This document shows, in pieces, positions 6,152 through 30,591 of a DNA stretch of 34,767 bases; within the stretch, counting starts at the first letter, position 1, and every line of letters begins with the position of its first letter. The DNA is taken from the NCBI GenBank assembly GCA_003648765.1, contig QMPV01000012.1, positions 1 through 34,767 on the forward strand, read 5' to 3'. Both the position numbers and the translations under genes were made by a program. The DNA is from Candidatus Aminicenantota bacterium. GTDB lineage: Bacteria; Acidobacteriota; Aminicenantia; Aminicenantales; Aminicenantaceae. The notes beneath the pieces are model-generated. The model was not told where the DNA came from. It saw only the letters and a list, made by a program, of their open reading frames with translations, and did not search any database.

Positions 6152-6196
6152 GCTTTTAAAAGAAGCGAATAGAAATTCTTTCGAGAAAAAGAAGAG

Positions 6197-6271: not shown

Positions 6272-6278
6272 GCGTGAA

Positions 6279-6353
6279 TGGTGAGCCGTGCTGGACTCGA
6301 ACCAGCGACACCCGGCTTAAAAGGCCGGTGCTCTCCCTCTGAGCTAACGGCCC
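6279..6353 (-). tRNA. tRNA-Lys (anticodon TTT)
   Basis: Cloverleaf: acceptor GGGCCGT/ACGGCTC, anticodon loop CTTTTAA, T loop TTCGAGT, encoded CCA. Confidence 0.95.
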
Positions 6354-9289: not shown

Positions 9290-11239
9290 TCAAAAATCAT
9301 TATTTTCAATAATCAGGCCATTTTCTGTCCATCCCTGAAGACGATAATAGACATCAAGAATCTTCTGCTGGAACTCTGGATCCACCGCCCGGCCGCGGTA
9401 AGGACCTTCCTTGAGAGGCACCCTAAATTTAGGAGGAATAAAGGCATCATAATCTCGGCTTCTTCCTTGGATATTGTTAATTTTTCTTTCCAGCTGATAA
9501 ATCCTCCGGCCACAGTCTTTTAGGGACTCTATCTCATAGGTCAGGCCGGTCAGGGACCGATATAATTCTAAAAACAGGTCCGAAAAAATATCACCGCTAA
9601 AAAAATCACAGAGTCCCAGCGAATCAATCAAGGCTTTGCCTACCTGAGATTGAACTACATAAGCCGCCAATTCCTCGGGCTGGGCCAAACCGGCTTCCTC
9701 CGCTTGGATTGTCCAAGCGTAGGTGTGATCGCCACGTCCTCGATTGGAGGTGCTATAGGCCGTAAACATCCCTGGAAAGACCTTGGGCTCAATCCCGGCG
9801 TAGCCCAGGCCTCCATAGGACTGGGTGAAACAAAAAATAATCTCCTTTTCATCAGCCGGTGGAAACCGGGCCATCAATTCATCAATGATTTTATCAGGAT
9901 ATTGAGCAAAAAGACGTCCGAGAAGAGACGATCGATAAGCCACACTTTCCAAGAAATTGAGCATTTCTTCAGCTTCTCCAAAACGCAATTTACTTTGTTC
10001 CTCCCCTAGGTATCCTTTTTCCGTCAGCTCCATCGCTGTGGCTGTTAAACTGCCGAAACTCATGGTATCCACACCTAATTCGTTGGCTCTTTTATTCAGA
10101 TAAAAAATAGCTTCCCGGTCTACCAGGCAACAATTAATCCAGAGGGCGATGGTTTCAAACTCGGGTCTGACACCCTCTCCCCGAAAACGACCGCTCTCTA
10201 CCCGAGCCCGGCGGGCACAAAAAATATGTCGACAACGATGACAAACCTGATGTCGGCCAGCTATGGCCAAGAAAACCGCTGTGGAAACCCGATCATAAAG
10301 AGCCGGGTCAAAATAACCTTCATCAAAATTATGCCAGGGCAAATACCCACCTTGATCACCCTCAAAATCTCCTCGGAAAGCCCGGTCCAACCACCAAGTA
10401 GTCCCTGTTTCCGGACGAAAAGAGACGGTCTTTTGAGGATCAGCCACATCAGCTTCAATCTGCTCATCCAGCTGGCGAGCTAAGGCGGTAAACTTGGAGG
10501 GATCAAAAACCCTCACTGGCTTATTCCCCCAAACTGTTACAGCGACAAGATTCTTAGAGCCGAAGACAGCACCTCCGCCGCCCCGACCGAAATTCCGATG
10601 GTAATCTGTGGTTAAATTGGCATAAGGCACTAAATTCCATCCGGCTGGCCCCAAACAGAGAGTAGAGGAACCAGGATACTTTTTCTCTAGATAATTAATA
10701 ATGGCTGAAGTCGGGCGAACGACCACCTGACCATTAATTTCTTCAAAAAGATCCGGCTCGGCCTCCAAAATTTCTACATTTCCTTCAGCCACCACCAATC
10801 TTACGGGGCGGTTGGCTCGACCATCAATAATAATTTGGTCAAATCCAGCTCTTTTCAAGCGATTGGGAAAATGCCCTCCGCAACTCGAATGAGTAATTAA
10901 TCCATAAAGAGGTGGATATTGGCCTAAACCAGCTGGCGGACGGGGTGAATAAGTCAGAGGACTGATAAAAGAACACGAACCCCGGCCGGCCGTGGGCACT
11001 GGAGTGTCGTTTAAAGGGGAATTACCGATAATAACCCTATTATCTGAGCTAAGAGGATCTTGGAGAAAGCCAATGTCTCGGATTTTTTCCCAGAGGAGGG
11101 CAGCCTGGACGCCGCGTCCGCCAATATATTTTTGATAAAGCTCCCAAGAGGGTAGCGTGACTCGAACCTGGCCCCTAGTTAAATCAACCCAGGCCCACCT
11201 TCCTTGGTAACCATAAAAGCCATTACTAGCTGACTTCAT
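9290..11239 (-). CDS. Aldehyde:ferredoxin oxidoreductase (AOR family, tungsten/molybdopterin)
   Basis: AOR N-terminal domain (GGRGVQAALLW..., THSSCGGHFPNRLKRAGFD, RNFGRGGGGAVFGSKNLVAVTVWG), [4Fe-4S] motif CHRCRHIFC plus distal GLCDFF. Confidence 0.93.
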   Translation of the reverse strand: MKSASNGFYGYQGRWAWVDLTRGQVRVTLPSWELYQKYIGGRGVQAALLWEKIRDIGFLQDPLSSDNRVIIGNSPLNDTPVPTAGRGSCSFISPLTYSPRPPAGLGQYPPLYGLITHSSCGGHFPNRLKRAGFDQIIIDGRANRPVRLVVAEGNVEILEAEPDLFEEINGQVVVRPTSAIINYLEKKYPGSSTLCLGPAGWNLVPYANLTTDYHRNFGRGGGGAVFGSKNLVAVTVWGNKPVRVFDPSKFTALARQLDEQIEADVADPQKTVSFRPETGTTWWLDRAFRGDFEGDQGGYLPWHNFDEGYFDPALYDRVSTAVFLAIAGRHQVCHRCRHIFCARRARVESGRFRGEGVRPEFETIALWINCCLVDREAIFYLNKRANELGVDTMSFGSLTATAMELTEKGYLGEEQSKLRFGEAEEMLNFLESVAYRSSLLGRLFAQYPDKIIDELMARFPPADEKEIIFCFTQSYGGLGYAGIEPKVFPGMFTAYSTSNRGRGDHTYAWTIQAEEAGLAQPEELAAYVVQSQVGKALIDSLGLCDFFSGDIFSDLFLELYRSLTGLTYEIESLKDCGRRIYQLERKINNIQGRSRDYDAFIPPKFRVPLKEGPYRGRAVDPEFQQKILDVYYRLQGWTENGLIIENNDF

Positions 11240-14307: not shown

Positions 14308-14350
14308 ACTGTAATTATCGGAAGGCTTTGAGTTTTCCGATAATTACAGT
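14308..14350. promoter_or_regulatory. Perfect 16-bp inverted repeat (11-nt loop) overlapping the predicted TSS
   Basis: ACTGTAATTATCGGAA (14308-14323) / TTCCGATAATTACAGT (14335-14350). Outer ATCAACT (14304-14310) / AGTTGAT (~14357-14363) extend the pairing around a bulge. Confidence 0.85.
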
Positions 14351-14521: not shown

Positions 14522-15103
14522 ATGGAAATCCAGAGAAAAATAAAATTTGAGGGAGAGCTTTCGCGGGATTTTCTTGACGAAATTAAAGAGATGTCCCATT
14601 GCGATGAAATCGATCGCTGCATTCAATGCGGCACCTGTAGCAGTTCCTGTCCTATGGCCATCTATATGGATTACCCTCCTCGAAAAATTATCGCCTTTGT
14701 GAAAAATGGATTCAGGGAAGAAGCCTTAAAAAGTTTTACTATCTGGCTCTGTTCCTCCTGCTATACCTGTCAGGTTCGTTGTCCCGCTAAAATTAAAATC
14801 ACCGATGTCATGTATGCCTTGAAAAGGAAAGCTATTCAGGAAAAAGTTTATCCTGGGCAATTTACTATCCCTGTCCTTGCCCGGGAAATGTATCGAATGA
14901 TTGCTAAAAACGGGCGTAGCTCCGAACTCTGGCTCATTCTCAATCTTTACTTAAAATCATGGAATCCCCTGGGTCTTATGAAGATGGCTCCGACAGGAAT
15001 AAGCCTGCTCAAAACAGGACGGATGAGCTTCAAGAAAGAAAAGATCAAGAATACTAGTCAACTTCAGAAAATCTTAAAAGCCGTCAAGGAGGATGGACAA
15101 TGA
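14522..15103 (+). CDS. hdrC: Heterodisulfide reductase subunit C-like
   Basis: Two cluster motifs CIQCGTCSSSCP and CSSCYTCQVRCP; AAGGAGG upstream. Confidence 0.92.
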   Translation: MEIQRKIKFEGELSRDFLDEIKEMSHCDEIDRCIQCGTCSSSCPMAIYMDYPPRKIIAFVKNGFREEALKSFTIWLCSSCYTCQVRCPAKIKITDVMYALKRKAIQEKVYPGQFTIPVLAREMYRMIAKNGRSSELWLILNLYLKSWNPLGLMKMAPTGISLLKTGRMSFKKEKIKNTSQLQKILKAVKEDGQ

Positions 15104-15978
15104 AAGATTATGCCTATTATCCCGGTTGCTCACTCAAGGGCAATGCTAAACACTACGAAGAATCCATCCTGCCTGTTTTTAAAGAACTGGGATTTGCTCT
15201 TGAGGAGCTGGAAGACTGGAATTGTTGTGGAGCTACGGCCTATTTTGCCGTTGACGACCGCATGGCTGCAGCTATTTGCGGCCGAAATTTAGCGCTGGCG
15301 GAGAAAGAAGGCAAAGATATTCTGGCTCCTTGTGCTGGTTGCTATTTAACTTTAAGGAAATCAAATCAATATCTAGCTAATGGCTCAGAAGAAGCCCAGA
15401 AAATTCTGGCCGTTCTCAAAGATGTAGATTGTGAATATCATGGGCAGGTCAAAGTGAAACACCCTTTAGAAGTTCTCATTCAAGACGTAGGGCTGAAAAC
15501 CATCCAAGCCAAAGTTCAAAATCCTTTGGTCGGTCTAAAAGTCGCCTGTTATTACGGCTGTCAATTAGTCAGACCTTTCACTGAATTCGATGATCCTGAC
15601 TACCCCGTGACTTTGGACCAAGTAATGGCGGCTATTGGAGCTACACCGGTTGAATATTCGGCCAAAACTAAATGTTGTGGCGGTTCTCTCACAGGAACAA
15701 TTGAAGAAGTAGGCACTCAGCTCAATTATGTTCTCCTTAAAGAAGCTAAAAGAAAAGAAGCTGATGTGATTGTGACTATATGTCCTCTGTGTCAATTTAA
15801 TCTGGAAATAATCCAGAATAAAGTAGCCCACAAATTTAAGGAAAAATTTGATATTCCCGTCCTCTATTTTTCCCAGCTAATGGGCCTGGCCTTTGGCCTG
15901 AATAAATATGAACTGGGGTTTAAACGTTCCATTATTCCTTTGAGCCCGCTGTGGGAAAAAATTCAGAGAGGAGGATAA
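15100..15978 (+). CDS. hdrB: Heterodisulfide reductase subunit B-like (two CCG domains)
   Basis: YYPGCSLKG...WNCCGATAYF...PCAGCY and ACYYGCQLVRP...KCCGGSL...CPLCQFNLE; ATGA overlap with hdrC. Confidence 0.95.
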   Translation: MKDYAYYPGCSLKGNAKHYEESILPVFKELGFALEELEDWNCCGATAYFAVDDRMAAAICGRNLALAEKEGKDILAPCAGCYLTLRKSNQYLANGSEEAQKILAVLKDVDCEYHGQVKVKHPLEVLIQDVGLKTIQAKVQNPLVGLKVACYYGCQLVRPFTEFDDPDYPVTLDQVMAAIGATPVEYSAKTKCCGGSLTGTIEEVGTQLNYVLLKEAKRKEADVIVTICPLCQFNLEIIQNKVAHKFKEKFDIPVLYFSQLMGLAFGLNKYELGFKRSIIPLSPLWEKIQRGG

Positions 15979-15979
15979 G

Positions 15980-16831
15980 ATGAACCAAAATGGTCAGCCT
16001 AGAATAGGTGTTTTTGTCTGTCATTGTGGCACTAACATTGCCGGCAAAGTAAATGTCTATGAAGTGGTCGACTTCTCTTCCAAACTCGACCATGTGGTCA
16101 TCGCCAAAGAATACAAATTCATGTGTTCTGATCCCGGGCAGGAACTTATCAAGCAAAGCATCCTAGAATACAAGCTTAACCGGGTTGTAGTAGCCTCCTG
16201 TTCTCCTTTAATGCACGAACCCACTTTCCGCGCTGTTACGGCGGAGGCTGGTCTTAATCCCTTCTATTTCCAGATGTCCAATATCCGGGAGCATGTCTCC
16301 TGGGTGACAGAAGACCCGGAGAAAGCCACCAAAAAGGCTAAAGCTCTTATTTCAGCAGCTGTCCGCCGGGTGGCTTTACATGACCCTCTCTTTAAAAAAG
16401 AAGTTCCGGTCCGACCCGAAGTCCTCATTGTTGGCGGAGGCATCGCCGGTATCCATGCCGCCCTGACTTACGCCAATTCAGGGAAAAAGGTCTATCTGGT
16501 GGAGAAGGAGCCCTCAATCGGAGGACATATGGCCATGCTGGACAAAACTTTTCCCACCCTTGACTGCTCCGCCTGTATTTTAACTCCTAAAATGACCGAA
16601 GTAGGTAAACATCCTAACATTGAGCTTTTAACTTGGAGTGAGATTGAGGAAGTTTCCGGATATGTGGGCAATTTCAAAGTCAAAATCAAGAAAAAAGCCC
16701 GCTATGTTGACCTGGATAAGTGTAATGGTTGCGGAGCTTGTTGGGAAAATTGCCCGACAGTCATTACTCCTTCTGAAAGGATAATCCGGAAAGGAAAAAC
16801 CATCATTAAAATTGTCGAAAAAGAACATTGA
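15980..16831 (+). CDS. hdrA: HdrA N-terminal half only (N-terminal domain, FAD GxGxxG, first inserted ferredoxin cluster)
   Basis: GVFVCHCGTNI, EVLIVGGGIAGIHAALTYANSGKKVYLVEKEPSIGGHMAMLDKTFPTLDCSACILTPKM, CNGCGACWENCP; ends at 283 aa, shortly after the first ferredoxin motif. Confidence 0.92.
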   Translation: MNQNGQPRIGVFVCHCGTNIAGKVNVYEVVDFSSKLDHVVIAKEYKFMCSDPGQELIKQSILEYKLNRVVVASCSPLMHEPTFRAVTAEAGLNPFYFQMSNIREHVSWVTEDPEKATKKAKALISAAVRRVALHDPLFKKEVPVRPEVLIVGGGIAGIHAALTYANSGKKVYLVEKEPSIGGHMAMLDKTFPTLDCSACILTPKMTEVGKHPNIELLTWSEIEEVSGYVGNFKVKIKKKARYVDLDKCNGCGACWENCPTVITPSERIIRKGKTIIKIVEKEH

Positions 16832-16832
16832 A

Positions 16833-17207
16833 ATGACTCTTCAACAAATTAAGGAACTTCTTCAAGCTGAAGTCATCTTTGGAGACCACTATCTGGATAG
16901 AGAAATTACTTTTGCTGGCGGGTCAGATCTGATGAGTGATGTTTTAGCTTTTGGGCAACCAGGAATTCTTTTGCTCACTGGTTTAACCAATCTCCAATCC
17001 GTCCGTACCGCCGATATTATCGAAGCTAAAGCCATCATCTATGTAAGAGGAAAAAAGCCGGATGCCCAAACTATCAAATTTGCCCGAGAAAAAAATATTC
17101 CCATATTATCCACCCCCTTAACGATGTATGAGGCCTGCGGGATTCTTTATCAAGCTGGGCTACCGGGAGTAGGGAGCTTACGTCCCACAACAACCTCTAA
17201 TGAATAG
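16833..17207 (+). CDS. DRTGG-domain protein (copy 1)
   Basis: AGGSDLMSDVLAFGQPGILLLTGLTN...IIYVRGKKPD...ARE.NIPIL. Start at 16833 follows the hdrA-N stop. Confidence 0.8.
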   Translation: MTLQQIKELLQAEVIFGDHYLDREITFAGGSDLMSDVLAFGQPGILLLTGLTNLQSVRTADIIEAKAIIYVRGKKPDAQTIKFAREKNIPILSTPLTMYEACGILYQAGLPGVGSLRPTTTSNE

Positions 17208-17646
17208 ACATGATGAATTTATCCAAACATTTACCATTTTGGGTAGAGATTTCAGCCGAGCCGGCAGCGTCTCGACTGAAATTAAAGAAATCCTTCAAGA
17301 AATCGGTGTGCCTTCATCCATCATTCGGCGGGTGGCTATTGCTTCTTATGAGGCAGAAATGAATGTAGTTATGTATGCTCAAAAAGGAGAATTAACTCTA
17401 ACGCTTAACCCGGAGACCATTAAAATAGAAGTGGAGGATGAAGGCCAGGGCATAGAAGATATTGAACTAGCTATGCAGGAAGGTTACTCCACTGCTACAG
17501 AAGAAATGCGGGAAATGGGCTTTGGAGCTGGTATGGGTTTACCTAATATCAAGAAGAATGCCCATATCTTTATTATTACTTCCTCGCCTGGAGTAGGCAC
17601 ATATTTAAAAATGATCTTTTACTTGGACGAGGAGAGGGCGGCCTAA
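17200..17646 (+). CDS. Anti-sigma-regulatory-like HATPase (RsbW-type)
   Basis: YEAEMNVVMYA (N box), VEDEGQGIEDIE (G1), GFGAGMGLPNIKKNAH (G2). Confidence 0.85.
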   Translation: MNRHDEFIQTFTILGRDFSRAGSVSTEIKEILQEIGVPSSIIRRVAIASYEAEMNVVMYAQKGELTLTLNPETIKIEVEDEGQGIEDIELAMQEGYSTATEEMREMGFGAGMGLPNIKKNAHIFIITSSPGVGTYLKMIFYLDEERAA

Positions 17647-19022
17647 TGGAATATTTTCATACTATTCGCATTGACCCTGACAAATGCCAGGGCCGCATGA
17701 GCTGTCTCCGCGTTTGCCCTACCCAGGCCATTCGAGTCAGAGGAGGTAAAGCCCGCATGCTGGAAGATAGATGTATTGATTGCGGGGAATGCATTACGGC
17801 CTGTAAAAACGGAGCCATTCGGCCACTCACCGATCCAGTAGGTGAATTAACCAAATTCCGCTACACTATAGCCATCCCCACTCCTGCCTTATATGCCCAA
17901 TTCGGCCAAGAAATTCTTCCAGGAAAAATCCTCAGCGGCCTCCGTCGGCTTGGTTTTGATGATGCCTACGATCTAGCTTACACTTGCGGGGAAGTAAGTC
18001 TTGTCATCCAGGAATATCTACGGGAAAATAAAGGCCCCCGACCGATTATTTCCAATGTCTGTCCTACGGTGGTCCGACTCATTCAGGTTAAATATCCATC
18101 TCTGGTGGACCACGTCACTCCCATTGACATCCCTCGGGAAATAGCCGGCCGGGAAATAAAAAAGAAAAAGGCCCAACAACTTGGACTGAAAGAAAAAGAA
18201 ATCGGTGCTTTTTATATCACTCCTTGTCCAGTTAAAATGCTTTCGATTAAACAGCCAGCGGAAAAAGTCAAGTCTCATCTCGACGGGGCTATTTCGATTG
18301 CTGATATTTACGGTCCCCTCCTCTCAGCCATGGAAACTCTGGATAAATCAGAAGAAAACAACTCCCTGGAAAATATCTGTCTCCTGGGTTTGGGCTGGGC
18401 CATTGCCGGTGGCATTCGGCGGACCTTAAAGCTGAAGAATTCCTTGGCTGTCTCAGGCATCACCGAGATAATTAAAGTCTTTGAAGATATAGAAAGAGGC
18501 AAATTAAAACATATCGATTTTATTGAAGCTTATTCTTGTCCTCAAGGTTGTGTGGGTGGCTCTCTAACCGTGGAGAACCTTTACATTTCTTATAATAAAA
18601 TCCTTCAACTCTTGGAAACATTGGAATTCGAAAAAATAAAAGCCTGCCCGGACATTGTTAAAATCCGCCGTCGTTATCGCTCCGGTTACTACTTCATCGA
18701 AGGTAAATTAAAACCCAGACCACTAAAACCCCTATATGAAGACCTTTCTCTAGCCATTCAGAAAAAGAAGGAAAAAGAAGAGATCTATGCCCGACTCCCC
18801 AAAATAGATTGTGGCGTTTGCGGCTCCCCTACCTGTCAGGCATTCGCCGAAGATGTGGTCAGAGGGGAGGCCGAGTTAACTGACTGTTTCGCCATGATTC
18901 CGGAGAAATTTCAGGAACTTTCTCAGGAATTAATTAAACTTTTAAAGAAAACCGCCCAGGCCTTCTCCTCAAAAATCCCCAAGAAGCAAACCCTTTCTAA
19001 GGAAAAAAAGAGGAAAAAATGA
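17646..19022 (+). CDS. [FeFe]-hydrogenase-like sensor protein (2x[4Fe-4S] ferredoxin + degenerate H-cluster domain + C-terminal Fe-S domain)
   Basis: CQGRMSCLRVCP, CIDCGECITAC; H-cluster motifs SNVCP, TPCPVK, EAYSCPQGCVGG; C-terminal CGVCGSPTCx16C (4Fe-4S domain). Confidence 0.88.
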   Translation: MEYFHTIRIDPDKCQGRMSCLRVCPTQAIRVRGGKARMLEDRCIDCGECITACKNGAIRPLTDPVGELTKFRYTIAIPTPALYAQFGQEILPGKILSGLRRLGFDDAYDLAYTCGEVSLVIQEYLRENKGPRPIISNVCPTVVRLIQVKYPSLVDHVTPIDIPREIAGREIKKKKAQQLGLKEKEIGAFYITPCPVKMLSIKQPAEKVKSHLDGAISIADIYGPLLSAMETLDKSEENNSLENICLLGLGWAIAGGIRRTLKLKNSLAVSGITEIIKVFEDIERGKLKHIDFIEAYSCPQGCVGGSLTVENLYISYNKILQLLETLEFEKIKACPDIVKIRRRYRSGYYFIEGKLKPRPLKPLYEDLSLAIQKKKEKEEIYARLPKIDCGVCGSPTCQAFAEDVVRGEAELTDCFAMIPEKFQELSQELIKLLKKTAQAFSSKIPKKQTLSKEKKRKK

Positions 19023-19360
19023 CTTTACAAGAAATTATCAAGGGTTTAAATCTCGAAGTTATTACTGGAGGAGATAATTTAAATCTCGAGGTAAAAGATG
19101 GGTACACCAGCGACCTCCTCAGCGATGTGATGGCCAATGCTCAACCTGCCTGCCTTTGGATCACTCTCCAGACCCATGTCAATATTGTGGCCGTAGCCAA
19201 ACTAAAAGACTTGGCCGGGATTATTATTGTTAACGGCCGTCAGCCCGACAAAGAAACCCGTCAAAAGGCGCAAGAGGAAAACCTGCCTCTTCTCCTGAGC
19301 AAGGAGACAGCCTTTCAGGTCTCGGGGCGACTTTATCAACTTCTGGGAAAGGGAAAGTGA
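19019..19360 (+). CDS. DRTGG-domain protein (copy 2)
   Basis: TSDLLSDVMANAQPACLWIT...GIIIVNGRQPDKETRQKAQEENLPLL; same layout as copy 1; ATGA overlap. Confidence 0.75.
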   Translation: MTLQEIIKGLNLEVITGGDNLNLEVKDGYTSDLLSDVMANAQPACLWITLQTHVNIVAVAKLKDLAGIIIVNGRQPDKETRQKAQEENLPLLLSKETAFQVSGRLYQLLGKGK

Positions 19361-20094
19361 AGGTGCTTCGAACTTTTAAAGCTGATCTCCACATTCATAC
19401 TTGCCTTTCTCCCTGCGGTGAACTTTCTATGTCGCCTCGCAATATCATCCTCCGCGCTGTGGAGGAAAAAATTGATATCCTCGGCATTTGTGACCACAAC
19501 TCCGCTGAAAATGTCCCGGCCCTTTTGGCCATAGCCAAAACATATCCCGTGACTATTTTCCCCGGCATGGAAATAACCTCCCAGGAAGAAATCCATATCC
19601 TGGGACTTTTTGATAATTTAGAGGCCGTTCTCCAGCTCCAGGAAGAAGTCTATCATCATCTCCCGGGAGAAAATGATGAAGAAGCTTTTGGGCTTCAGGT
19701 AGTGGTCAATGAACAGGGAGAAGTTTTACGCTTCAATCCTCGATTACTTATTGGTGCTTGCAACCTCTCTCTCAACCAGATTGTCGATTTAATTCATTCC
19801 TTTAAGGGCCTAGCCATCGCTTCCCATATTGACCGGGAATCATTCAGCTTGATCAGTCAGTTAGGTTTCATTCCCTCTGATATCATTCTGGATGCTTTAG
19901 AAATTTCTCCTTCCATTTCTTACTATCAGGCTCTCAATCGTTTTGCTCCTCACCTGCCGTTGGTCTCCTTTTCCGATGCCCACCGGCCCGAGGAAATAGG
20001 ACAAAGCTTCACCCGCTTCCTCATCCAAGAGGCCTCTCTAACTGAGATTCGCCTGGCTCTCCGAAACCAACAAGGCAGGAGGATAATTCATTAA
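19357..20094 (+). CDS. PHP-domain metal-dependent phosphoesterase-like protein
   Basis: ADLHIHTCLSPCG, ILGICDHNSAENV, FPGMEITSQEEIHILGLF, ASHIDRE, SFSDAHRPEEIG. Confidence 0.9.
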   Translation: MKVLRTFKADLHIHTCLSPCGELSMSPRNIILRAVEEKIDILGICDHNSAENVPALLAIAKTYPVTIFPGMEITSQEEIHILGLFDNLEAVLQLQEEVYHHLPGENDEEAFGLQVVVNEQGEVLRFNPRLLIGACNLSLNQIVDLIHSFKGLAIASHIDRESFSLISQLGFIPSDIILDALEISPSISYYQALNRFAPHLPLVSFSDAHRPEEIGQSFTRFLIQEASLTEIRLALRNQQGRRIIH

Positions 20095-20095
20095 A

Positions 20096-20629
20096 ATGGA
20101 GGATTTATCCTTGCACATTCTTGATGTGGCCGAAAATTCTCTGGCGGCCAAAGCTACCCGGGTAATTATCCGTCTTGAAGAGGATACCCAGGCTAAAACC
20201 CTCCGACTGGTTATTGAAGACAATGGTCAGGGGATGGATAAAGAGACTTTGAAACGGGCTGTTGATCCTTTTTTCACCACCAAACAGACCCGTCGAGTGG
20301 GCTTGGGACTTTCTTTACTGGCTCAAGCGGCCCACGCCACGGGGGGACAGTTTTCTCTGGAATCAAAGCCTGGTTGGGGAACAAAAGTGACAGCCACTTT
20401 TAAAACAGATCATTGGGACTTGAAACCCCTCGGCGACATTAGTCAAACCTTATTGACTCTTATTCTAGGCCATCCTGAAGTGGAGTTGATTTTTATTCAC
20501 CGCCGGGACAATCAAGAAGCTATCTTCTCTACCGAAAAGGTTAAAGCCGAGCTTAACGGATGGCTACTTAATTCTCCCCAGGCAATTCCATTAATCATGG
20601 ATCATATAAATAAAGCTATGAACTTATAA
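20096..20629 (+). CDS. Stand-alone histidine-kinase-type HATPase (no DHp domain)
   Basis: LVIEDNGQGMDKETLKRAVDPFFTTK...GLGLSLLAQAAHATGGQFSLESKPGWGTKVTATF. Confidence 0.85.
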   Translation: MEDLSLHILDVAENSLAAKATRVIIRLEEDTQAKTLRLVIEDNGQGMDKETLKRAVDPFFTTKQTRRVGLGLSLLAQAAHATGGQFSLESKPGWGTKVTATFKTDHWDLKPLGDISQTLLTLILGHPEVELIFIHRRDNQEAIFSTEKVKAELNGWLLNSPQAIPLIMDHINKAMNL

Positions 20630-20640
20630 GGAGGGAAACC

Positions 20641-21093
20641 ATGGAGGCTAAAGTTTCCGAAATACTCCAACGATATGAACCGGAACAAAGCTCTATCATC
20701 GCTATTTTGCAGGACATCCAGGAAGCCTATGGCTATCTTCCCCGAGAGACACTAGTTGAAGTAGCCCAGGAACTCAATATTCCGCTAAGTCGTGTTCTCA
20801 GTCTAGCCACCTTCTTCCGAGCTTTTAGTTTAAAGCCCAAAGGTAAACATCCTATCCACGTCTGTATGGGCACCGCCTGCCATGTTCGAGGCGCTCAACT
20901 CGTCTTGGAAAAGTTCGAACGTGAACTGGGCATTAAAACCGGAGAAACAACTGAAGATTTCACTTTTTCTTTAGACGCCGTTCGCTGCGTGGGTTGTTGT
21001 GGTTTGGCCCCAGTGGTAATGGTCGGGGAAGAAGTCCACGGTAAGGTTTCTCAAATGAAAGTTCCGGGAATTATTAAAAAATATAAAAAATAA
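20641..21093 (+). CDS. hndA: NADH-oxidising module, NuoE/HndA-like [2Fe-2S] thioredoxin-like subunit
   Basis: LQDIQEAYGYLP...VCMGTACHVRGA...VRCVGCCGLAPVVMV. Confidence 0.93.
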   Translation: MEAKVSEILQRYEPEQSSIIAILQDIQEAYGYLPRETLVEVAQELNIPLSRVLSLATFFRAFSLKPKGKHPIHVCMGTACHVRGAQLVLEKFERELGIKTGETTEDFTFSLDAVRCVGCCGLAPVVMVGEEVHGKVSQMKVPGIIKKYKK

Positions 21094-21104: not shown

Positions 21105-21494
21105 ATGCCTAAACTGACAATAGAAGAATTGGAAAAATTAAGGGAGAGGGCGAAAAAGGCAACATTTCTCCGAGAAACCACTGATTATCGGGCCAAGATA
21201 ACGGTTCACATGGGCACCTGTGGGATCGCGGCTGGCGCCAGAGAAATCATGAATGCCTTTCTTCAAGAGCTTCAAGCAAGAGATATCACTGATGTTCTTC
21301 TCACCAACTCAGGTTGTGCTGGGCTGTGCAGTCGTGAACCTATGGCCACTATAGAAATTAAGGGCCAGGCTCCAGTGAAATATGTTGATCTAACCCCGGA
21401 AAAAGTTAAGCAAATATTCGAAAAACATGTTCTCGGAGGCGAAATAGTTCAAGACTACGCCCTCGGCATCGGTAGCGAAAAAACTGACTATTAA
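21105..21494 (+). CDS. hndB: HndB-like [2Fe-2S] thioredoxin-like protein
   Basis: VHMGTCGIAAGAREIM...LTNSGCAGLCSREPMATI. Confidence 0.88.
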   Translation: MPKLTIEELEKLRERAKKATFLRETTDYRAKITVHMGTCGIAAGAREIMNAFLQELQARDITDVLLTNSGCAGLCSREPMATIEIKGQAPVKYVDLTPEKVKQIFEKHVLGGEIVQDYALGIGSEKTDY

Positions 21495-21506: not shown

Positions 21507-23339
21507 ATGGAAGAGAAAACTACTCCGACAAGATACCGGCTACATCTCATGGTCTGTGCCGGGACAGCCTGCGTCTCCAACCGCTCTTTTGAAATAAAAG
21601 AAGCTTTGGAGAAAGAGCTCAAAAAACAGGGCTTAGAAAATGAAGTCCTGGTCGTGACCACGGGCTGCAATGGCTTCTGTGAAAGAGGACCTCTCTTAGT
21701 GGTGCAACCTGGTAATATTTTCTATCAACAACTGACAGTTAAAGACATTCCTTACCTAGTGGAAGAACACTTTCTGAAAGGACGTCCGGTTCAAAAATTA
21801 ATGTATACTCCGCCTGAAGAAAAAAAACCCATTCCTGTCCTCAACGATATAGACTTCTTCAAAAAACAAGTTCTCATTGCTCTTCGGAATCGAGGTTTAA
21901 TTGATCCCGAAAAAATCGAAGATTATATCGCCCGAGATGGCTATCGAGCTCTAGTTAAAGCCCTCACCCAGATGACTCCCGAAGAAATAATTGAAGAAAT
22001 TAAGAAATCAGGGCTTCGAGGTAGAGGCGGGGCCGGCTTTCCAACCGGCCTTAAATGGGAATTTGTCCGGCTAGCCAGTCCTGCCAATGGCGGCCTAAAA
22101 TACCTGGTTTGTAATGGCGACGAAGGTGACCCCGGGGCTTTTATGGACCGGAGTATTCTAGAGGCCGATCCCCATTCAGTTATCGAAGGAATGGTTATTG
22201 GCGCTAAAGCCATTGGCGCTCAACAGGGTTATGTTTACATCCGCAATGAATACCCTCTAGCCCTCAAGAGATTAACTCTGGCGCTGGAGCAAGCCCGTGA
22301 ATATGGACTTCTCGGCAAAGATATTTTAGGAACGGGCTTTGATTTTGATATCAAAGTGGCTCGCGGGGCTGGCGCCTTTGTCTGCGGTGAAGAGACGGCC
22401 TTGCTAGCCTCAATTGAAGGCCGTCTGGGTGAACCTCGACCTCGTCCACCTTACCCCGCTCAACGTGGCCTCTACGGCCAACCAACCTGTATCAATAATG
22501 TTGAAACCTGGGCGAACGTGCCGGTGATAATCAATCGTGGAGCTGAATGGTTTTCCAAAATCGGCACCAAGACCAGTAAAGGAACCAAAGTATTTTCTCT
22601 GGTCGGTAAAATCAACAACACCGGTTTGGTCGAAGTTCCCATGGGGATAACGCTCCGGGAAATTATTTTTGAAATAGGCGGAGGAATTCCCGGAGGCAAA
22701 GAATTTAAGGCCGTCCAGACAGGCGGCCCTTCGGGTGGGTGTATTCCTAAAGAAAAACTTGACCTGCCTATCGACTATGAAAGTTTAACCGAAGCCGGCT
22801 CCATGATGGGCTCTGGGGGTATGGTGGTTATGGATGAAGACACCTGTATGGTGGATGTGGCCAAATACTTCCTTTCTTTTACTCAAGACGAATCCTGCGG
22901 CAAATGTACTCCTTGTCGGGAAGGAACCAAGGCTATGTTGGACATTCTGGAGCGCATCACTAAAGGGGAAGGCACCGAAGAAGATTTACAGCTTCTAGAA
23001 GATTTGGCGGTCTCCATTAAGGAAACCGCCCTCTGTGGGCTAGGAAAAACTGCTCCCAATCCGGTGTTGACAACTCTCCGTTATTTCCGGGACGAATATT
23101 TAACCCACATCCGCGACAAGAAATGTCCAGCTCATGTTTGTCGAGATCTTAATGTCTACACTATTGACGAAAAAATTTGTCTGGAAGTGGGTCATGGCTG
23201 TGACGTGTGCCGACGCAATTGTGCTTCTGAGGCTATTATTGGCGAAAAAAATCAACCTCACCGGATAATTCAGGAAAAATGCATCAAATGCGGCGTGTGC
23301 TACGATGTTTGTAAATTCGGCGCCGTGAAAGTTGATTAA
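21507..23339 (+). CDS. hndC: NuoF/HndC-like NADH-binding flavoprotein with N-terminal [2Fe-2S] and C-terminal ferredoxin domain
   Basis: CAGTACVSNR...TTGCNGFCERGP; GLRGRGGAGFPTGLKWEF, NGDEGDPGAFMDRSILE; CGKCTPCREG; C-terminal CIKCGVCYDVC. Confidence 0.95.
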   Translation: MEEKTTPTRYRLHLMVCAGTACVSNRSFEIKEALEKELKKQGLENEVLVVTTGCNGFCERGPLLVVQPGNIFYQQLTVKDIPYLVEEHFLKGRPVQKLMYTPPEEKKPIPVLNDIDFFKKQVLIALRNRGLIDPEKIEDYIARDGYRALVKALTQMTPEEIIEEIKKSGLRGRGGAGFPTGLKWEFVRLASPANGGLKYLVCNGDEGDPGAFMDRSILEADPHSVIEGMVIGAKAIGAQQGYVYIRNEYPLALKRLTLALEQAREYGLLGKDILGTGFDFDIKVARGAGAFVCGEETALLASIEGRLGEPRPRPPYPAQRGLYGQPTCINNVETWANVPVIINRGAEWFSKIGTKTSKGTKVFSLVGKINNTGLVEVPMGITLREIIFEIGGGIPGGKEFKAVQTGGPSGGCIPKEKLDLPIDYESLTEAGSMMGSGGMVVMDEDTCMVDVAKYFLSFTQDESCGKCTPCREGTKAMLDILERITKGEGTEEDLQLLEDLAVSIKETALCGLGKTAPNPVLTTLRYFRDEYLTHIRDKKCPAHVCRDLNVYTIDEKICLEVGHGCDVCRRNCASEAIIGEKNQPHRIIQEKCIKCGVCYDVCKFGAVKVD

Positions 23340-23351
23340 GGAGGTGAGACT

Positions 23352-25109
23352 ATGATTCATCTAACCATAGACGGTAAAAAGTTAGAGGTAGAAGAAGGAA
23401 CTACCATCCTCCAAGCGGCCGAAAAAGCTGATATCCATATTCCCACCCTTTGCTTCCATCCTCTCCTAGAACCCTACGCCTCCTGCCGGGTCTGCATTGT
23501 CGAAGTTGAACATCAAGGTAAGAAAGAATTATTGACTTCCTGCAATACCCTGGTTCGTGAGGGAATGGTGGTTGAAACAGCTTCTGAACGGGTCCTGCGA
23601 GCCAGAAAATTGAATGTGGAAATGCTCCTGGCCCGGGCTCCGGCAGCTGAGCCCGTCAAAAAAATTGCCCAGGAGCTGGGTATTGAGAAACCTCGTTTTG
23701 AAATTAAGGATCCCCAAGAAAAATGTATTCTCTGTGGACTTTGCGTCCGGGCCTGTGAGGAGGTAGTAGGAGCCAATGCCATCAGTTTTATTAATCGAGG
23801 CCAAGAACGAGAAGTGGCTCCGCCTTTTGGAGAACCGAGCGAAGCTTGTATCGGTTGTACAGCCTGTGCTTTCTTCTGTCCTACTGGAGCTATCACTTAT
23901 GAAGATCTCTATGGACGCCAAGTCATCCATGAAGAACTTAATCTCGGGCCAGCTACAGCTATTCGGGTGCCTATTCGGCAAGCTGTGCCCATGGTACCTT
24001 TTATCGACGAAGACGCCTGCATTCATTTTAAGACGGGCAACTGCCAGCTGTGCGTCAAGGTCTGCGAAAAGGAAGCCATCAACCACGATATGAAAGAAGA
24101 AGAAATAGAAATCGAAGTGGGCTCCATCATCTTGGCCTCAGGTTTCAAACCCTTTGACGCCCGACGAATTCCAGCTTATGGTTACGGAAGATTTCCCAAC
24201 GTCATTACTGCTCTGGAATTTGAAAGATTGGTTAATGCCTCTGGACCTACTGGAGGAAAAATCCTTCTGGCGAATGGCCAAGAACCAAAAGCCGTGGGCA
24301 TCATTCATTGTGTGGGCTCACGAGATGAAAATTACAATGAGTATTGTTCCCGAGTCTGCTGCATGTACTCCCTCAAATTTGCTCATCTCATTAGAGAAAA
24401 AACTGAGGCTGATATCTATGATTTTTACATCGACATGCGGTGCTTTGGAAAAGGTTACGAAGAATTCTACCATCGTCTCCTTCACGAAGGGACTAAATTC
24501 ATCCGAGGCCGCGTGTCTGAAATTACTGACATTCCTTTAACCCCAGAAGAAGAAGGTAAACTTATCATTCGGGTTGAAGACACTCTGGTGGGCACTGTCA
24601 GACGAATCCCCGTCGACATGGTGATTTTAGCTACTGGACTTGAACCTAGTCTCGATCATAATGAGATTGCTCATATTTTCAATATTTCTTGCAGCCAAGA
24701 TACCTTCTTTCTGGAAAGACATCCCAAGCTCGCGCCGGTTTCCACTTTCTCTGATGGCATCTTTCTAGCCGGGACCTGTCAATCTCCCAAAGATATTCCT
24801 GATACAGTTGCCCAGGCTGGAGCTGCTGCTTCTGAAGCCCTGGCTTTGGCTGATAAGGGTACTTTTGAGCTCGAGCCCATAACTGCCGAAATAGATGAAA
24901 AACTCTGTGCAGGCTGCCAAATCTGCGTTTCTCTTTGTCCTTTCAATGCTATCACCTACAACAAAGAAAAGCATATTTCCGAAGTCAACGACGCCCTGTG
25001 CAAAGGTTGCGGAACCTGTGTCTCAGCCTGTCCCTCCGGGGCCGCCCAACAGAAACACTTCCGCGATCTACAGATAATGGCGGAGATTGAAGGACTTTTC
25101 ATTGACTAA
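23352..25109 (+). CDS. Chimera: NuoG/HydA-type Fe-S N-terminus ([2Fe-2S] + 2x[4Fe-4S]) fused to HdrA C-terminal half
   Basis: N-term CFHPLLEPYASCRVCIVEVEHQGKKELLTSC, CILCGLCVRAC, CIGCTACAFFCP. Then HdrA-like IRQAVPMVPFIDEDACIHFKTGNCQLCVKVC, EVGSIILASGFKPFDA, GIIHCVGSRDENYNEYCSRVCCMYSLKFAHLI, DFYIDMRCFGKGYEEFYH, DMVILATGLEPS, FLAGTCQSPKDIPDTVAQAGAAASEAL, and two C-terminal ferredoxin motifs. Confidence 0.93.
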   Translation: MIHLTIDGKKLEVEEGTTILQAAEKADIHIPTLCFHPLLEPYASCRVCIVEVEHQGKKELLTSCNTLVREGMVVETASERVLRARKLNVEMLLARAPAAEPVKKIAQELGIEKPRFEIKDPQEKCILCGLCVRACEEVVGANAISFINRGQEREVAPPFGEPSEACIGCTACAFFCPTGAITYEDLYGRQVIHEELNLGPATAIRVPIRQAVPMVPFIDEDACIHFKTGNCQLCVKVCEKEAINHDMKEEEIEIEVGSIILASGFKPFDARRIPAYGYGRFPNVITALEFERLVNASGPTGGKILLANGQEPKAVGIIHCVGSRDENYNEYCSRVCCMYSLKFAHLIREKTEADIYDFYIDMRCFGKGYEEFYHRLLHEGTKFIRGRVSEITDIPLTPEEEGKLIIRVEDTLVGTVRRIPVDMVILATGLEPSLDHNEIAHIFNISCSQDTFFLERHPKLAPVSTFSDGIFLAGTCQSPKDIPDTVAQAGAAASEALALADKGTFELEPITAEIDEKLCAGCQICVSLCPFNAITYNKEKHISEVNDALCKGCGTCVSACPSGAAQQKHFRDLQIMAEIEGLFID

Positions 25110-25195: not shown

Positions 25196-25627
25196 ATGAG
25201 TCAGCAAGCCTTCGAACCCAAGCTAGTTGGCTTCTTGTGTAATTGGTGTTCCTATACCGGGGCTGACCTCGCCGGAACAGCCCGGATGACCTACGCTCCC
25301 AATCTCCGGATAATCAGGGTCATGTGTAGTGGCCGAGTGGATCCTCAATTTGTGCTCAAAGCTTTTCAGGAAGGAGCGGATGGAGTTCTTATCTCCGGCT
25401 GCCATCCCGGCGATTGCCATTACCAAGAAGGCAACTACAAAGCCCTCCGAAGGCACCGCCTACTATCCAAAATGTTGGAACAATTTGGCATCGAAAAAGA
25501 ACGTTTTCGTCTGGAATGGGTTTCCGCCGCAGAAGGTGCTAAATTCCAGAAAGTCTGTAATGAATTCACTGAACAAATCAGAAAATTAGGACCATTGTCC
25601 TGGAATGGAGGAAAAAAGAATGAGTGA
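25196..25627 (+). CDS. mvhD: F420-non-reducing hydrogenase iron-sulfur subunit D-like
   Basis: [21 protein letters not shown]...[11 protein letters not shown]-like ([38 protein letters not shown]). Confidence 0.95.
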
Positions 25628-26600
25628 TCAGAAGCCAAAAGTAGCTTTTTACTGGTGTGCATCCTGCGGAGGATGCGAAGAAGCTGTGATTGACCTGGCC
25701 GAAGATATCCTCAAAGTAGTGGAAGCTGTTGATATTGTTTTCTGGCCGGTAGCTCTCGATTTCAAGAAAAGTGACGTTGAAGCAATGGAAGACGGGTCAA
25801 TCGCAGTGAGTTTTATCAATGGAGCTGTGCGCCTCTCGGAACAAGAAGAGATGGTTAAATTGCTCCGCCGAAAATCTCAATTAGTCGTGGCCTTTGGCAG
25901 CTGCGCCCATTTGGGAGGAATTCCCGGGTTGGCTAATTTCTGGGACAAAGAATCCATTTTTAATCGAGCCTATCATACGACTCCTTCCACTGATAATCCT
26001 GAAGGGGTGGTTCCCCAAGAAAAATGCACTATTGACGGGAAGGAGTTATACTTACCAAGTTTTTTTAATACTGTTTATGCTCTTGATCAGGTTATCGATG
26101 TGGATTATTACCTCCCGGGATGTGCTCCTCCTCGAGACCTCATTATGAATGCTGTTCAGGCCATTCTTGAAGGTAACCTCCCTCCTAAGGGATCCGTGCT
26201 CTCTCCCAACAAAGCCCTCTGTGAAGACTGCGACCGCAATGACACCAAACCCGAAAAATTAGCCATCAAAGATATTAAACGTCCTTGGGAAGTTATTCTC
26301 GATCCCGAAGTTTGTTTCTTGGCTCAAGGGGTCATTTGTCTTGGCCCGGCCACCAGAACAGGTTGCGGCCAACGCTGCATTAGCGCCAACATGCCCTGTC
26401 GTGGTTGCTTCGGACCAACCGACCAAGTTATTGATATGGGAGCCAAATTCCTGGCAGCCTTTGCTTCTATTTTGGATGCTGATGACGAAAGCGAAGTGGA
26501 AAAAATTGTCGAGACAATCGTGGATCCTGCTGGCACCTTTTACCGCTTCAGTCTGCCAACATCCATTCTCAGACGACGTAAAATGGAGGAAAAACGATGA
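25620..26600 (+). CDS. mvhG: [NiFe] hydrogenase small subunit, group 3c (MvhG-like)
   Basis: [57 protein letters not shown]. Start at 25620 preferred (GGAGG upstream). Confidence 0.94.
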
Positions 26601-28057
26601 GTCAAAGAATTACAATTGATCCCATAACTAGGTTAGAAGGCCATGGCAAAATAGAAATATTTTTGGACGATAAAGGCGATGTTGAACGGGCTTTTCTCCA
26701 GATTCCTGAACTCCGGGGATTCGAACAATTTGCCGTAGGTCGACCTGCCGAAGAAATGCCCCGGATCACTCCTCGAATCTGCGGTGTCTGCCCCACGGCT
26801 CACCATATGGCTTCCACTAAAACTCTGGATGATCTCTTTAAAGTAGAGCCCACCCCTGCAGCCCGGATGATTAGAGAGTTAATTTATAACGCCTTCCAAT
26901 TTGAAGACCATACGCTTCATTTCTTTTTTCTAGGCGGACCGGACTTCGTTGTTGGTCCCAAAGCCCCCAAAGCCGAACGCAATATACTCGGCGTAATCGG
27001 CAAAGTTGGTCTGGAAATTGGGGGAAAAGTTATCCGAGCTAGAAGGGAAGCCCGAGACATTATCAATTACCTTGGAGGTAAAGTAATTCATCCCGTTTGT
27101 GGCCTTCCTGGTGGTGTTTCCAAACCACTGGATGAAGAACACCGACTCCAATTTTTGGAAACCGCCAAATTCATCCGGGAATTTGCCCTCTTTGCTCTCC
27201 AGATCTTTGATGATGTCGTTCTCAAAAATAAAGAATACGTCGAACTAGTCACTGGTGATGCCTATAAGATGGAAACTTATTATATGGGACTGGTGAATAA
27301 AGATAACAAAGTTGACTTTTATGACGGCGACGTTCGGGTAGTTGATCCCGAAGGCAAAGAATTTGCCAAATTTAAACCCCATGAATATCTTGATCATATT
27401 GCCGAACATGTGGAACCTTGGACCTATATCAAATTCCCCTTCTTAAAGAAAGTCGGTTGGAAAGGTTTTGTTGAGGGTAAAAATAGCGGCATTTTCCGAG
27501 TGGCTCCTCTCGCTCGACTAAATGCTTCTGATGGGATGGCTACGCCCTTGGCTCAGGAAGCCTATGAAAAAATGTACGAAACACTGGGGGGCAAACCTTC
27601 CCACCACACCCTCGCCTTTCATTGGGCTCGCCTTATTGAAGCTCTCCAGGCAGCGGAAAAGATGGTTGAACTTCTGGAAAATAAAGACATCACTGATCCC
27701 AATATTCGGAATATTCCCACAGAAACTCCCACAGAAGGAATAGGTATTGTTGAAGCTCCTCGAGGAACTCTTATTCACCACTACAAAACAGATGAAAGAG
27801 GTATCATTACCGAAGCCAACCTAATTGTGGCCACTGTTAACAACGCGGCGGCCATAACCATGTCCATCGAAAAAGCAGCCAAAGCCTTTATTAAAGGGGG
27901 CAAAGTAGACGAGGGAATTCTCAATCTGGCGGAGATGGCCTTCCGACCCTATGATCCCTGTCACGCTTGCGGAACTCACGCCCTACCTGGAGATATGCCT
28001 CTTGAAATCCGGATTTACGATCACGAAGGGGAACTAGTCAAGAAACTGAAAAAATAA
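26597..28057 (+). CDS. mvhA: [NiFe] hydrogenase large subunit, group 3c (MvhA-like)
   Basis: DPITRLEGHGKIEIFLD, RICGVCPTAHHMA (L1), DPCHACGTHA (L2); ATGA overlap with mvhG. Confidence 0.96.
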   Translation: MSQRITIDPITRLEGHGKIEIFLDDKGDVERAFLQIPELRGFEQFAVGRPAEEMPRITPRICGVCPTAHHMASTKTLDDLFKVEPTPAARMIRELIYNAFQFEDHTLHFFFLGGPDFVVGPKAPKAERNILGVIGKVGLEIGGKVIRARREARDIINYLGGKVIHPVCGLPGGVSKPLDEEHRLQFLETAKFIREFALFALQIFDDVVLKNKEYVELVTGDAYKMETYYMGLVNKDNKVDFYDGDVRVVDPEGKEFAKFKPHEYLDHIAEHVEPWTYIKFPFLKKVGWKGFVEGKNSGIFRVAPLARLNASDGMATPLAQEAYEKMYETLGGKPSHHTLAFHWARLIEALQAAEKMVELLENKDITDPNIRNIPTETPTEGIGIVEAPRGTLIHHYKTDERGIITEANLIVATVNNAAAITMSIEKAAKAFIKGGKVDEGILNLAEMAFRPYDPCHACGTHALPGDMPLEIRIYDHEGELVKKLKK

Positions 28058-28599: not shown

Positions 28600-30591
28600 A
28601 TGAATCCACCACAGCTCTCCTTAAGAACAAAATTAATCCTTAGTTTCCTAGTGGTCATAATTTTTGGTGGTCTAATTTCCTTGATTATCGGCTGGCGCAT
28701 AGTAAAAAACACTCTTATCAGTCAAGCTCAACTAAAAGTTAAACATGACCTTTCAGCTGCCTGGATGGTCTTTAATGAACGCCTTAACGACATTAAAGAC
28801 ATTATTGCTCTGACTTCCGCCCGGGAAAGCCTTCACCAGGCGCTTCAGGAAAAGCGCCAAGATATTCTTCTTAAGTACCTCCAAAGAGTCCGTCAGGGAT
28901 ACGCTCTCGACTTTCTCAACCTGACCGATGCTCGAGGGCAAGTGGTCATTCGGACCAGAAATCCAGCTCATACCGGTGACGATCAGTCGAATGATGAATT
29001 AGTCTCCCGAGCTCTTCAAGGAGTTACCGTAGCTGCGCCTCAAATAATTCCCCGGAAAGAACTTCTCAAAGAAGGTCCTGATTTAGCTGAAAGAGCCAAG
29101 ATGAAAATTTTACCCACCCCTAAAGCCGCCCCTCGGGAGGAAAACATCGAAACGCGAGGCATGGTGTTAAAAGCCGCCGCCCCCCTTATTGATGAAAGTG
29201 GCCAAATATTGGGCGCTCTTTATGGGGGTTTGCTTTTGAATCGCAATTATGAAATTGTCGACCGAGTCAAAGGTATCGTTTATAAAGACGAAAAATACAA
29301 GGGTCGAGAAATTGGTACAGCCACTATTTTCCAGCACGACCTGCGCATCTCCACTAATGTCCGCAATAAAGATGGCAGCCGAGCCATCGGTACCCGGGTC
29401 TCCCGAGAAGTTAGTCAAGCCGTTTTGAAAGAAGGGCAACCTTGGATTGATCGAGCCTTTGTAGTCAATGATTGGTATATTACCGCCTATGAACCCATTC
29501 GCAACATTGAAGGACGCATTATCGGTATGTTGTATGTCGGCATGCTGGAAAAACCCTATTTGGACACTACTAATCGCGTGATGCTTACCTTTACCGGAAT
29601 GGCCTCTCTCTGTGTAGTAGTTCTTCTAATTATCCTCTATTTCTCCACGACCAGGATTATCAATCCCCTCCAAAAAATGGTGACCGCCACTCAATGGATT
29701 GCCCAAGGTGACCTCTCCCATAAAGTAGATGTGACTTCTAGCGATGAAATCGGCCAATTAGCTGCTTCCTTCAACGTGATGGTGGACAATCTTAAAGAAG
29801 CCAATCGAAAACTTATTGAATGGGGCAAAACTCTGGAAAAAAAAGTAGAAGAAAGAACTAAAGAATTATGCGCTATGCAAGCCCATCTGATTCAATCTGA
29901 AAAATTAGCTTCCCTCGGAAAATTAGCGGCAGGCATTGCGCATGAAATCAATAATCCTTTGGGCGGCATTCTAATTTACAGCCATCTTCTCTTGGAAGAT
30001 ACCGATAAAAATAGTCCTCACTATGAAAATTTAAAAAAAATCGTTAAAGAAACAGCCCGATGTAAAGAGATTGTCAAAAGGCTTTTGGAATTCGCGCGAC
30101 CCAAAGAACCGGAATTTACCTTGATCGATATCAATGAAATTGTCGAGAAATCCCTCTCTATCGTGGAAAGACAGGTGCTTTTCCAGAATATCAAAATCAT
30201 CAAAGATTATGATCCTCATCTCCCTAGAACAGTAGCTGACGGAGCTCAATTACAACAGGTGTTTACCAATATTATTATTAATGCGGCTGAAGCAATGAAT
30301 GGCCAAGGAACTCTCACGATTAAAACCTACCGAGATCCGGAGGATAAATATCTCCACATTTCCTTCGCCGACACCGGCCATGGCATAAGCGAAGAGGATA
30401 AAAGAAGAATTTTTGAACCCTTTTTCACGACGAAGGAGGTTGGCCAAGGCACCGGTTTAGGACTGGCTATAAGCTACAGCATAATCCAAAAACATCAAGG
30501 AACTATTGAAGTTATTAGTCAACCCCAAGAAGGAGCCACTTTTATTGTTAAACTTCCCATTAGGAAAGACGGGGATGAAGAAAAAACATAA
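28600..30591 (+). CDS. Membrane sensor histidine kinase (Cache-like periplasmic domain, HAMP, HisKA, HATPase)
   Basis: N-terminal TM, large extracytoplasmic region, second TM, HAMP, GIAHEINNPLGGIL H box, DTGHGISEEDKRRIFEPFFTTK..GTGLGLAIS. Confidence 0.93.
   Translation: MNPPQLSLRTKLILSFLVVIIFGGLISLIIGWRIVKNTLISQAQLKVKHDLSAAWMVFNERLNDIKDIIALTSARESLHQALQEKRQDILLKYLQRVRQGYALDFLNLTDARGQVVIRTRNPAHTGDDQSNDELVSRALQGVTVAAPQIIPRKELLKEGPDLAERAKMKILPTPKAAPREENIETRGMVLKAAAPLIDESGQILGALYGGLLLNRNYEIVDRVKGIVYKDEKYKGREIGTATIFQHDLRISTNVRNKDGSRAIGTRVSREVSQAVLKEGQPWIDRAFVVNDWYITAYEPIRNIEGRIIGMLYVGMLEKPYLDTTNRVMLTFTGMASLCVVVLLIILYFSTTRIINPLQKMVTATQWIAQGDLSHKVDVTSSDEIGQLAASFNVMVDNLKEANRKLIEWGKTLEKKVEERTKELCAMQAHLIQSEKLASLGKLAAGIAHEINNPLGGILIYSHLLLEDTDKNSPHYENLKKIVKETARCKEIVKRLLEFARPKEPEFTLIDINEIVEKSLSIVERQVLFQNIKIIKDYDPHLPRTVADGAQLQQVFTNIIINAAEAMNGQGTLTIKTYRDPEDKYLHISFADTGHGISEEDKRRIFEPFFTTKEVGQGTGLGLAISYSIIQKHQGTIEVISQPQEGATFIVKLPIRKDGDEEKT

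Follow-up and report, generated by a model that had tools for sequence, protein, structure and literature searches.

A group D-type [FeFe]-hydrogenase homolog encoded among [NiFe]-Hdr genes of an Aminicenantota bacterium probably senses redox state through its Fe-S clusters and not hydrogen

What does an H-cluster-like sensor protein detect when it is encoded among the genes of a [NiFe] enzyme complex? The question is raised by a 458-aa ORF of an uncultured Candidatus Aminicenantota bacterium (GCA_003648765.1, contig QMPV01000012.1), found in a stretch of 34,767 nt that is called the window below. An initial annotation had proposed that this protein lies in a [NiFe]-Hdr operon and may sense H2 or the redox state on behalf of the [NiFe] complex. 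The operon context was confirmed, with genes for HdrABC and MvhADG around that of the sensor. The operon runs from the HdrC-like gene (14522) to the gene of the [NiFe] large subunit (28057), in the following order:

14522..15103, + strand: HdrC-like protein (Fer4_8, 48 bits)
15100..15978, + strand: HdrB-like protein with two CCG domains (PF02754, 101 bits)
15980..16831, + strand: N-terminal part of HdrA (HdrA2 positions 1-258) as a separate gene (NF040770, 383 bits)
16812..17207, + strand: DRTGG-domain protein 1 (PF07085)
17200..17646, + strand: RsbW-like ATPase of the anti-sigma/serine-kinase type, its gene immediately preceding that of the sensor (PF13581, 34 bits)
17646..19022, + strand: the sensor, a group D (M2e)-type [FeFe]-hydrogenase-like (HydS-like) protein of 458 aa (Pfam PF02906, PF04060, Fer4)
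19019..19360, + strand: DRTGG-domain protein 2 (PF07085)
19357..20094, + strand: PHP-domain phosphoesterase-like protein (PF13263 above its cut-off; PF02811 just under it, 26.3 versus 26.4 bits)
20096..20629, + strand: histidine-kinase-like ATPase (HATPase_c; PF02518, 62 bits)
20641..21093, + strand: NuoE/HydC-like [2Fe-2S] subunit (PF01257, 171 bits)
21105..21494, + strand: [2Fe-2S] thioredoxin-like ferredoxin (NCBIfam NF041612, 49 bits, under the cut-off of 150)
21507..23339, + strand: NuoF/HydB-like NADH/FMN subunit (profile search)
23352..25109, + strand: fusion of a NuoG/HydA-type N-terminal domain with HdrA positions 263-639 (profile search)
25196..25627, + strand: MvhD/FlpD (PF02662, 195 bits)
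25605..26600, + strand: [NiFe] hydrogenase small subunit, MvhG-like (profile search)
26597..28057, + strand: [NiFe] hydrogenase large subunit, MvhA-like, with the Ni ligand motifs RICGVC and DPCHAC (profile search, sequence)

The sensor ORF overlaps both of its neighbors by 1 to 4 bases and is thus translationally coupled to them. HdrA is split between two genes (15980-16831 and 23352-25109) on either side of the regulatory cassette, a layout conserved in some 20 loci. The AT-rich gap upstream of the operon contains a perfect 15-bp inverted repeat, CTGTAATTATCGGAA / TTCCGATAATTACAG, with an 11-base spacer and no T-run (14309-14349), which is possibly an operator or a terminator. Near the operon lies a gene for another ferredoxin-linked enzyme, an aldehyde ferredoxin oxidoreductase-like protein (9290-11239, - strand); the window also has tandem tRNA-Glu and tRNA-Lys genes (6196-6353, - strand). 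Directly after the [NiFe] large subunit gene come genes for an sCache/HAMP histidine kinase and a sigma-54-type response regulator (28600-31951), the kinase being kept at the same place in many relatives. Sigma-54 control through this downstream HK/NtrC pair was considered and rejected, as -24/-12 matches were not enriched (11 found, 12.3 expected).

Pfam analyses of the sensor detected Fe_hyd_lg_C (PF02906) at 99.5 bits against a cut-off of 22.1, the C-terminal Fe-S domain PF04060 at 52 bits and a Fer4 dicluster at the N terminus. Its AlphaFold2 model, built with 48 homologs, had a mean pLDDT of 93.3, and the best PDB matches were [FeFe] hydrogenases, apo forms among them. These Pfam scores, the model and the conservation of cysteines among the 48 homologs (C139, C194 and C302 invariant, C298 conserved in at least 90%) rule out an artifact or chance ORF. 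The protein has 18 cysteines in total, and its motifs are located as follows:

17685..17804, + strand: ferredoxin-like F-domain, C14 to C53, with Arg at the Cys17 position, 17694-17696 (sequence, alignment)
18051..18065, + strand: L1 motif SNVCP, with C139 and V138 at the relay Cys position (sequence)
18219..18236, + strand: L2 motif TPCPVK, with C194, K197 and T192 at the M353 position (sequence, alignment)
18534..18551, + strand: L3 motif SCPQGC, with C298 and C302; Y296, just upstream, is at the M497 position (sequence, alignment)
18810..18887, + strand: C-terminal Cx2Cx4Cx16C Fe-S motif, C389-x2-C392-x4-C397-x16-C414 (PF04060, 52 bits; sequence)

The cysteines that the initial annotation had assigned to the H-cluster are thus all present in the H-domain (C139, C194, C298 and C302), the relay Cys (C299) is replaced by Val directly before C139 as it had stated, and the C-terminal motif lies exactly as claimed. 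Loss of the relay Cys and replacement of M353 by T192 are both as in group D (M2e), and no PAS domain, a group C (M2f) trait, was found by Pfam after the C-terminal Fe-S motif. The domain plan is therefore group D-like, in agreement with a sensory rather than catalytic profile. The first ferredoxin-type motif, a feature overlooked in the initial annotation, reads C14-x2-R17-x2-C20, so that one usual cluster ligand is absent and the F-domain has seven cysteines instead of the usual eight. A decaying relic was ruled out because the cysteines of the F-domain, the H-domain and the C terminus, except at position 17, are kept across phyla.

The group D (M2e) protein TamHydS of Thermoanaerobacter mathranii has the same arrangement of F-domain, H-domain and C-terminal Cx2Cx4Cx16C motif and likewise no PAS domain (PMC8163306, PMC13104023). 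Further likenesses are the loss of the relay Cys, the change of M353 to Ser/Thr, the conserved R30/R32, a C-terminal Glu-Asp pair (E402/D403 in the sensor, E392/D393 in TamHydS) and a histidine-kinase-like ATPase as neighbor. In contrast, TamHydS can take up the H-cluster and catalyzes H2 turnover, whereas the window's genome lacks HydEFG and its protein has Arg at Cys17 and Tyr at the M497 position. TmHydS, RaHydS and HfsB of group C (M2f) are also putative sensory H-domain proteins with a C-terminal Fe-S motif and a link to the regulation of another hydrogenase, but they have a PAS domain. A tree computed by a quick method from 91 group D-type proteins (TamHydS not among them) and three group C outgroup rows placed the group C rows outside the group D-type clade and the sensor with clostridial group D-type proteins. 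It belongs to a 65-member clade (SH-aLRT 100) that spans several phyla and is nested inside clostridial diversity.

A complete H-cluster requires HydE, HydF and HydG, and [NiFe] enzymes require HypD. We searched the assembly (92.3% complete, 288 contigs) with profiles, on which all gene absences in this genome rest. The sensor was the only PF02906 protein. Hence the earlier statement that the window has no catalytic [FeFe] hydrogenase is true of the whole assembly, and such an enzyme elsewhere in the genome, named beforehand as counter-evidence, was not found. A check for hydE/F/G had also been proposed: HydG was not found, the best HydE candidate was a radical-SAM match of 23 bits against a cut-off of 254.6, and HydF gave generic GTPase matches only (93 bits against 325.6). 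HypD was recovered at 445 bits.

Given 288 contigs and 92% completeness, the maturase genes could have been lost to incomplete assembly, and the protein would then be an ordinary group D hydrogenase that senses H2 in the usual way. We surveyed the class, taking PF02906 scores above 250 bits as group A-like. A PF02906 protein was present in 83 of 142 genomes. HydG was detected in 10 of the 12 with a group A-like protein and in 1 of the 71 without (G250, a fragment match), an association with a Fisher p of 2.9e-10 over the 83 genomes. None of the 33 genomes of at least 90% completeness with PF02906 but no group A-like protein had HydG, and two single-contig genomes (G151 and G152) have the sensor but neither HydG nor HydE above cut-off. 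The maturases would thus have to be missing from all of these, as well as from a genome that yielded HypD. Incompleteness is largely refuted by this survey as the cause, and we regard it as highly implausible.

The relatives of the sensor behave likewise. A scan of 84,980 species genomes yielded 80 homologous loci, the close relatives being mostly Candidatus Aminicenantes (67-72% identity). Of 50 genomes tested from homolog loci, 26 lacked HydG. Of the closest relatives, 15 genomes were tested (L071 to L086, minus L073): none had HydG and 14 had no other PF02906 protein. HydF, for which the searches covered a sample across the phylum and chosen relatives, exceeded its cut-off in one of the 15 (G281). 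Some genomes (G289, G306, G295, G302, G310, G315, G316 and G325) have a group A-like protein above 330 bits and no HydG above cut-off, most of them also without HydF; here either the assembly has gaps or a group A enzyme truly occurs without its maturases. Because of such genomes, missing maturases are not strict proof of a missing H-cluster. In the literature searched, all that we found on group D proteins without HydEFG was a general remark of 2011 that [FeFe] genes occur without maturases in a few species (PMC3226654); a group D clade that spans several phyla and is dissociated from HydEFG was not described in the papers searched.

We next considered the [2Fe] pocket. In hydrogenases, K358 contacts a cyanide of the [2Fe] site and M497 frames the diiron site; apo [FeFe] hydrogenases bear the [4Fe-4S] cubane without the [2Fe] part. 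Where the genome has neither HydG nor a group A protein, the sequences retain all four H-cluster cysteines in 54/54 cases and K358 in 53/54. As apo enzymes carry the cubane, the cysteines are compatible with a lone [4Fe-4S] cluster, which leaves K358 as the main feature still favoring a [2Fe] site. TamHydS expressed in Escherichia coli without HydEFG was isolated as an apoenzyme with its Fe-S clusters (PMC13104023). At the M497 position, the window's subclade has Tyr in 25/25 rows and the clostridial group D rows have Leu or Gln in 21/26, and the S232 position is Ala in 23/25 as against Ser, Ala or Thr in the clostridial rows; these counts are only descriptive, since the rows are related, two pairs being identical, and do not represent independent events. 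The sensor quite likely lacks the [2Fe] subcluster.

In another subclade, the C298 (C499) position is His in 4/14 rows, read directly in L062 and L063, both from HydG-positive genomes, and deduced from the subclade tally for L085 and L111; judged from the alignment, this is further erosion of the clade's H-site. Separately, locus L029 (241-2394, - strand; genome G064, without HydG) encodes a 717-aa fusion of a HydS-like N-terminal part with a histidine kinase, with CKGC (Cx2C, not Cx3C) as L3 motif and Arg at the K358 position. Several HydG-lacking Aminicenantia genomes have PF02906 matches of similar score (130-142 bits) in ORFs of about 700 aa.

The retention of four cysteines and K358, in an operon for an H2-metabolizing [NiFe] enzyme, might instead denote a true H2 sensor whose complete H-cluster comes from an unrecognized HydEFG-free route or from very divergent maturases. 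HydG is, after all, also missing from some genomes with group A-like proteins. The matches to HydE, HydF and HydG, however, are far under cut-off, and the pocket is changed by the Tyr at M497; in CpI, M497L blocked proper [2Fe] integration (PMC10055695), although Leu, Gln and Ser are tolerated in sensory enzymes. Moreover, relatives serve complexes without a hydrogenase subunit. We therefore consider a true H2 sensor quite improbable. Because the cysteines are strictly kept together with K358, we also entertain, as a long shot, that a functional cofactor, organometallic or of another kind, is assembled at the clade's H-site without HydE, HydF and HydG; if true, H-cluster-type sites could be made or filled by a second route.

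Group D genes often share an operon with a separate group A hydrogenase (PMC8163306). The sensor's operon has none, and NuoEF-HdrA-MvhADG stands in its place. The initial annotation was thus right that no [FeFe] partner is present but inexact in speaking of a missing partner domain, the usual partner being a separate group A enzyme (PMC8163306). In the flanking DNA, which was short for a few loci, no group A [FeFe] hydrogenase lies beside any of the 65 clade members, and for 56 of them the genome lacks HydG. Outside the clade, most of the 26 clostridial rows adjoin a bifurcating [FeFe] HydABC where the flank is sufficient (e.g., L094), and 19 come from HydG-positive genomes.

Within the clade, the catalytic partner differs among loci: it is NuoEF-HdrA-MvhADG, or a two-subunit [NiFe] hydrogenase accompanied by a protease-like gene, or NuoEF with a molybdopterin NuoG/FdhA-like subunit and Nfn-like flavoproteins, this last having no hydrogenase subunit. 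NuoEF was rejected as the universal partner, as some Aminicenantes loci (L036, L038 and L039) lack it, the cassette there adjoining the two-subunit [NiFe] hydrogenase and protease-like gene. In our view, it is this swapping of the catalytic partner that speaks most strongly against H2 sensing as the function for which the protein is conserved. Common to the differing complexes is a ferredoxin- or NADH-linked redox state. Of the two proposed signals, redox state is thus the better half; H2 sensing through an H-cluster is unsupported, with HydEFG absent and the relatives' cassettes beside hydrogenase-free complexes, and it would need a cofactor that the organism apparently cannot make.

The protein might, alternatively, be an electron-transfer or assembly subunit of NuoEF-HdrA-MvhADG, its H-domain serving as an Fe-S scaffold. 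The shared operon, the translational coupling and the 18 cysteines fit such a role, and there is a precedent in the NiFe-HydABCSL of Acetomicrobium mobile (Bfu family), in which a NuoEF-type core is likewise joined to a [NiFe] hydrogenase and HydA has an Fe-S cluster in place of the H-cluster (PMC8880783). The extra operon genes of A. mobile, HydD, HydP and HisK, are assumed to act in maturation or regulation (PMC8880783). Unlike that enzyme, the window's core is fused or adjoined to HdrA/HdrBC/MvhD, and the consulted passages on the Bfu classification name no Hdr-Mvh type of NuoEF enzyme (PMC9304861). Against a subunit, NuoF is present in 70/80 wide, well-flanked loci and missing around the other 10, and the catalytic partner swaps completely between loci. 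Among the 110 loci whose flanks are long enough, on the other hand, 109 have the RsbW-like gene immediately before that of the sensor, and 102 have an upstream DRTGG gene. The constant partner is thus a putative kinase and not an oxidoreductase subunit, and a subunit role appears rather unlikely.

The constant pairing supports a regulatory role, whose output would be the RsbW-like protein. Across 116 sequences, its ATP-site residues (E51, N55, D80, G82, G84, G107-G113 and T134) show more than 90% conservation, and the N, G1 and G2 boxes are intact as in RsbW-type partner-switching modules. Unlike those modules, the cassette has DRTGG and PHP proteins instead of a sigma factor or STAS antagonist, and no sigma factor, antagonist or direct target is encoded within it. 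Adjacency of genes is not proof of regulation; with that reservation, the conserved pairing makes it likely that the sensor exerts a regulatory effect via the RsbW-like protein.

We thus propose that the sensor is probably an Fe-S redox sensor and not a hydrogen sensor, because the cofactor genes are absent, a kinase gene is adjacent and a nickel or molybdenum enzyme complex is usually nearby. The H-domain would hold only a [4Fe-4S] cubane on its four H-cluster cysteines, without [2Fe], as in apo forms. Low-potential electrons from reduced ferredoxin or from the NuoEF-HdrA-MvhADG complex would load the F-domain clusters and the H-site cubane, and the redox state of the clusters would cause a conformational change read by the RsbW-like kinase encoded immediately upstream. 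The kinase would act on the DRTGG, PHP and HATPase proteins, which may adjust how strongly the associated bifurcating complex is expressed or how active it is. We infer the cubane-only state, the direction of signaling and the target, and we give the whole reading, a cubane-only redox sensor acting via the RsbW/DRTGG/PHP cassette on electron-bifurcating complexes, about even confidence.

A redox regulator could also work through another cluster, either at the three-Cys F-domain site created by Arg17 or at the C terminus, the H-domain being structural only. The window's subclade has R, K, H or L at position 17 in 25/25 rows, a fixed loss of Cys that contrasts with 26/26 Cys in clostridial group D; the C-terminal motif is conserved throughout. 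However, the C-terminal cluster of TamHydS was unresponsive to H2 (PMC13104023), and the H-domain cysteines are kept as strictly as the others, except for the change of C298 to His in four sequences of the other subclade. We consider this version unlikely and prefer the H-site cubane as part of the redox-sensing device.

The means to make an H-cluster belongs to the definition of a hydrogenase, and the search for the genes gave none; for this reason we file the protein as a group D-type homolog and not as a hydrogenase. By its gene context and genome content, it is probably one uncoupled from [FeFe] chemistry. All groups have been argued to share the H-cluster from the conservation of HydEFG, and group D proteins have been discussed as H2 sensors on that assumption (PMC8163306). 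Our genome comparisons suggest that the window's clade is an exception: in a large group spanning several phyla, the sensor and its cassette persist mostly without maturases and without a neighboring [FeFe] hydrogenase, attached instead to [NiFe]-Hdr, molybdopterin or Nfn-like complexes. The RsbW-like kinase can be named as the likely direct output of the sensor. Counting such genes as a sign of [FeFe] hydrogen metabolism in Aminicenantes would mislead. The clade also makes testable an old question, namely whether "sensory hydrogenases" are conserved for H2 or for the low-potential electron pool.
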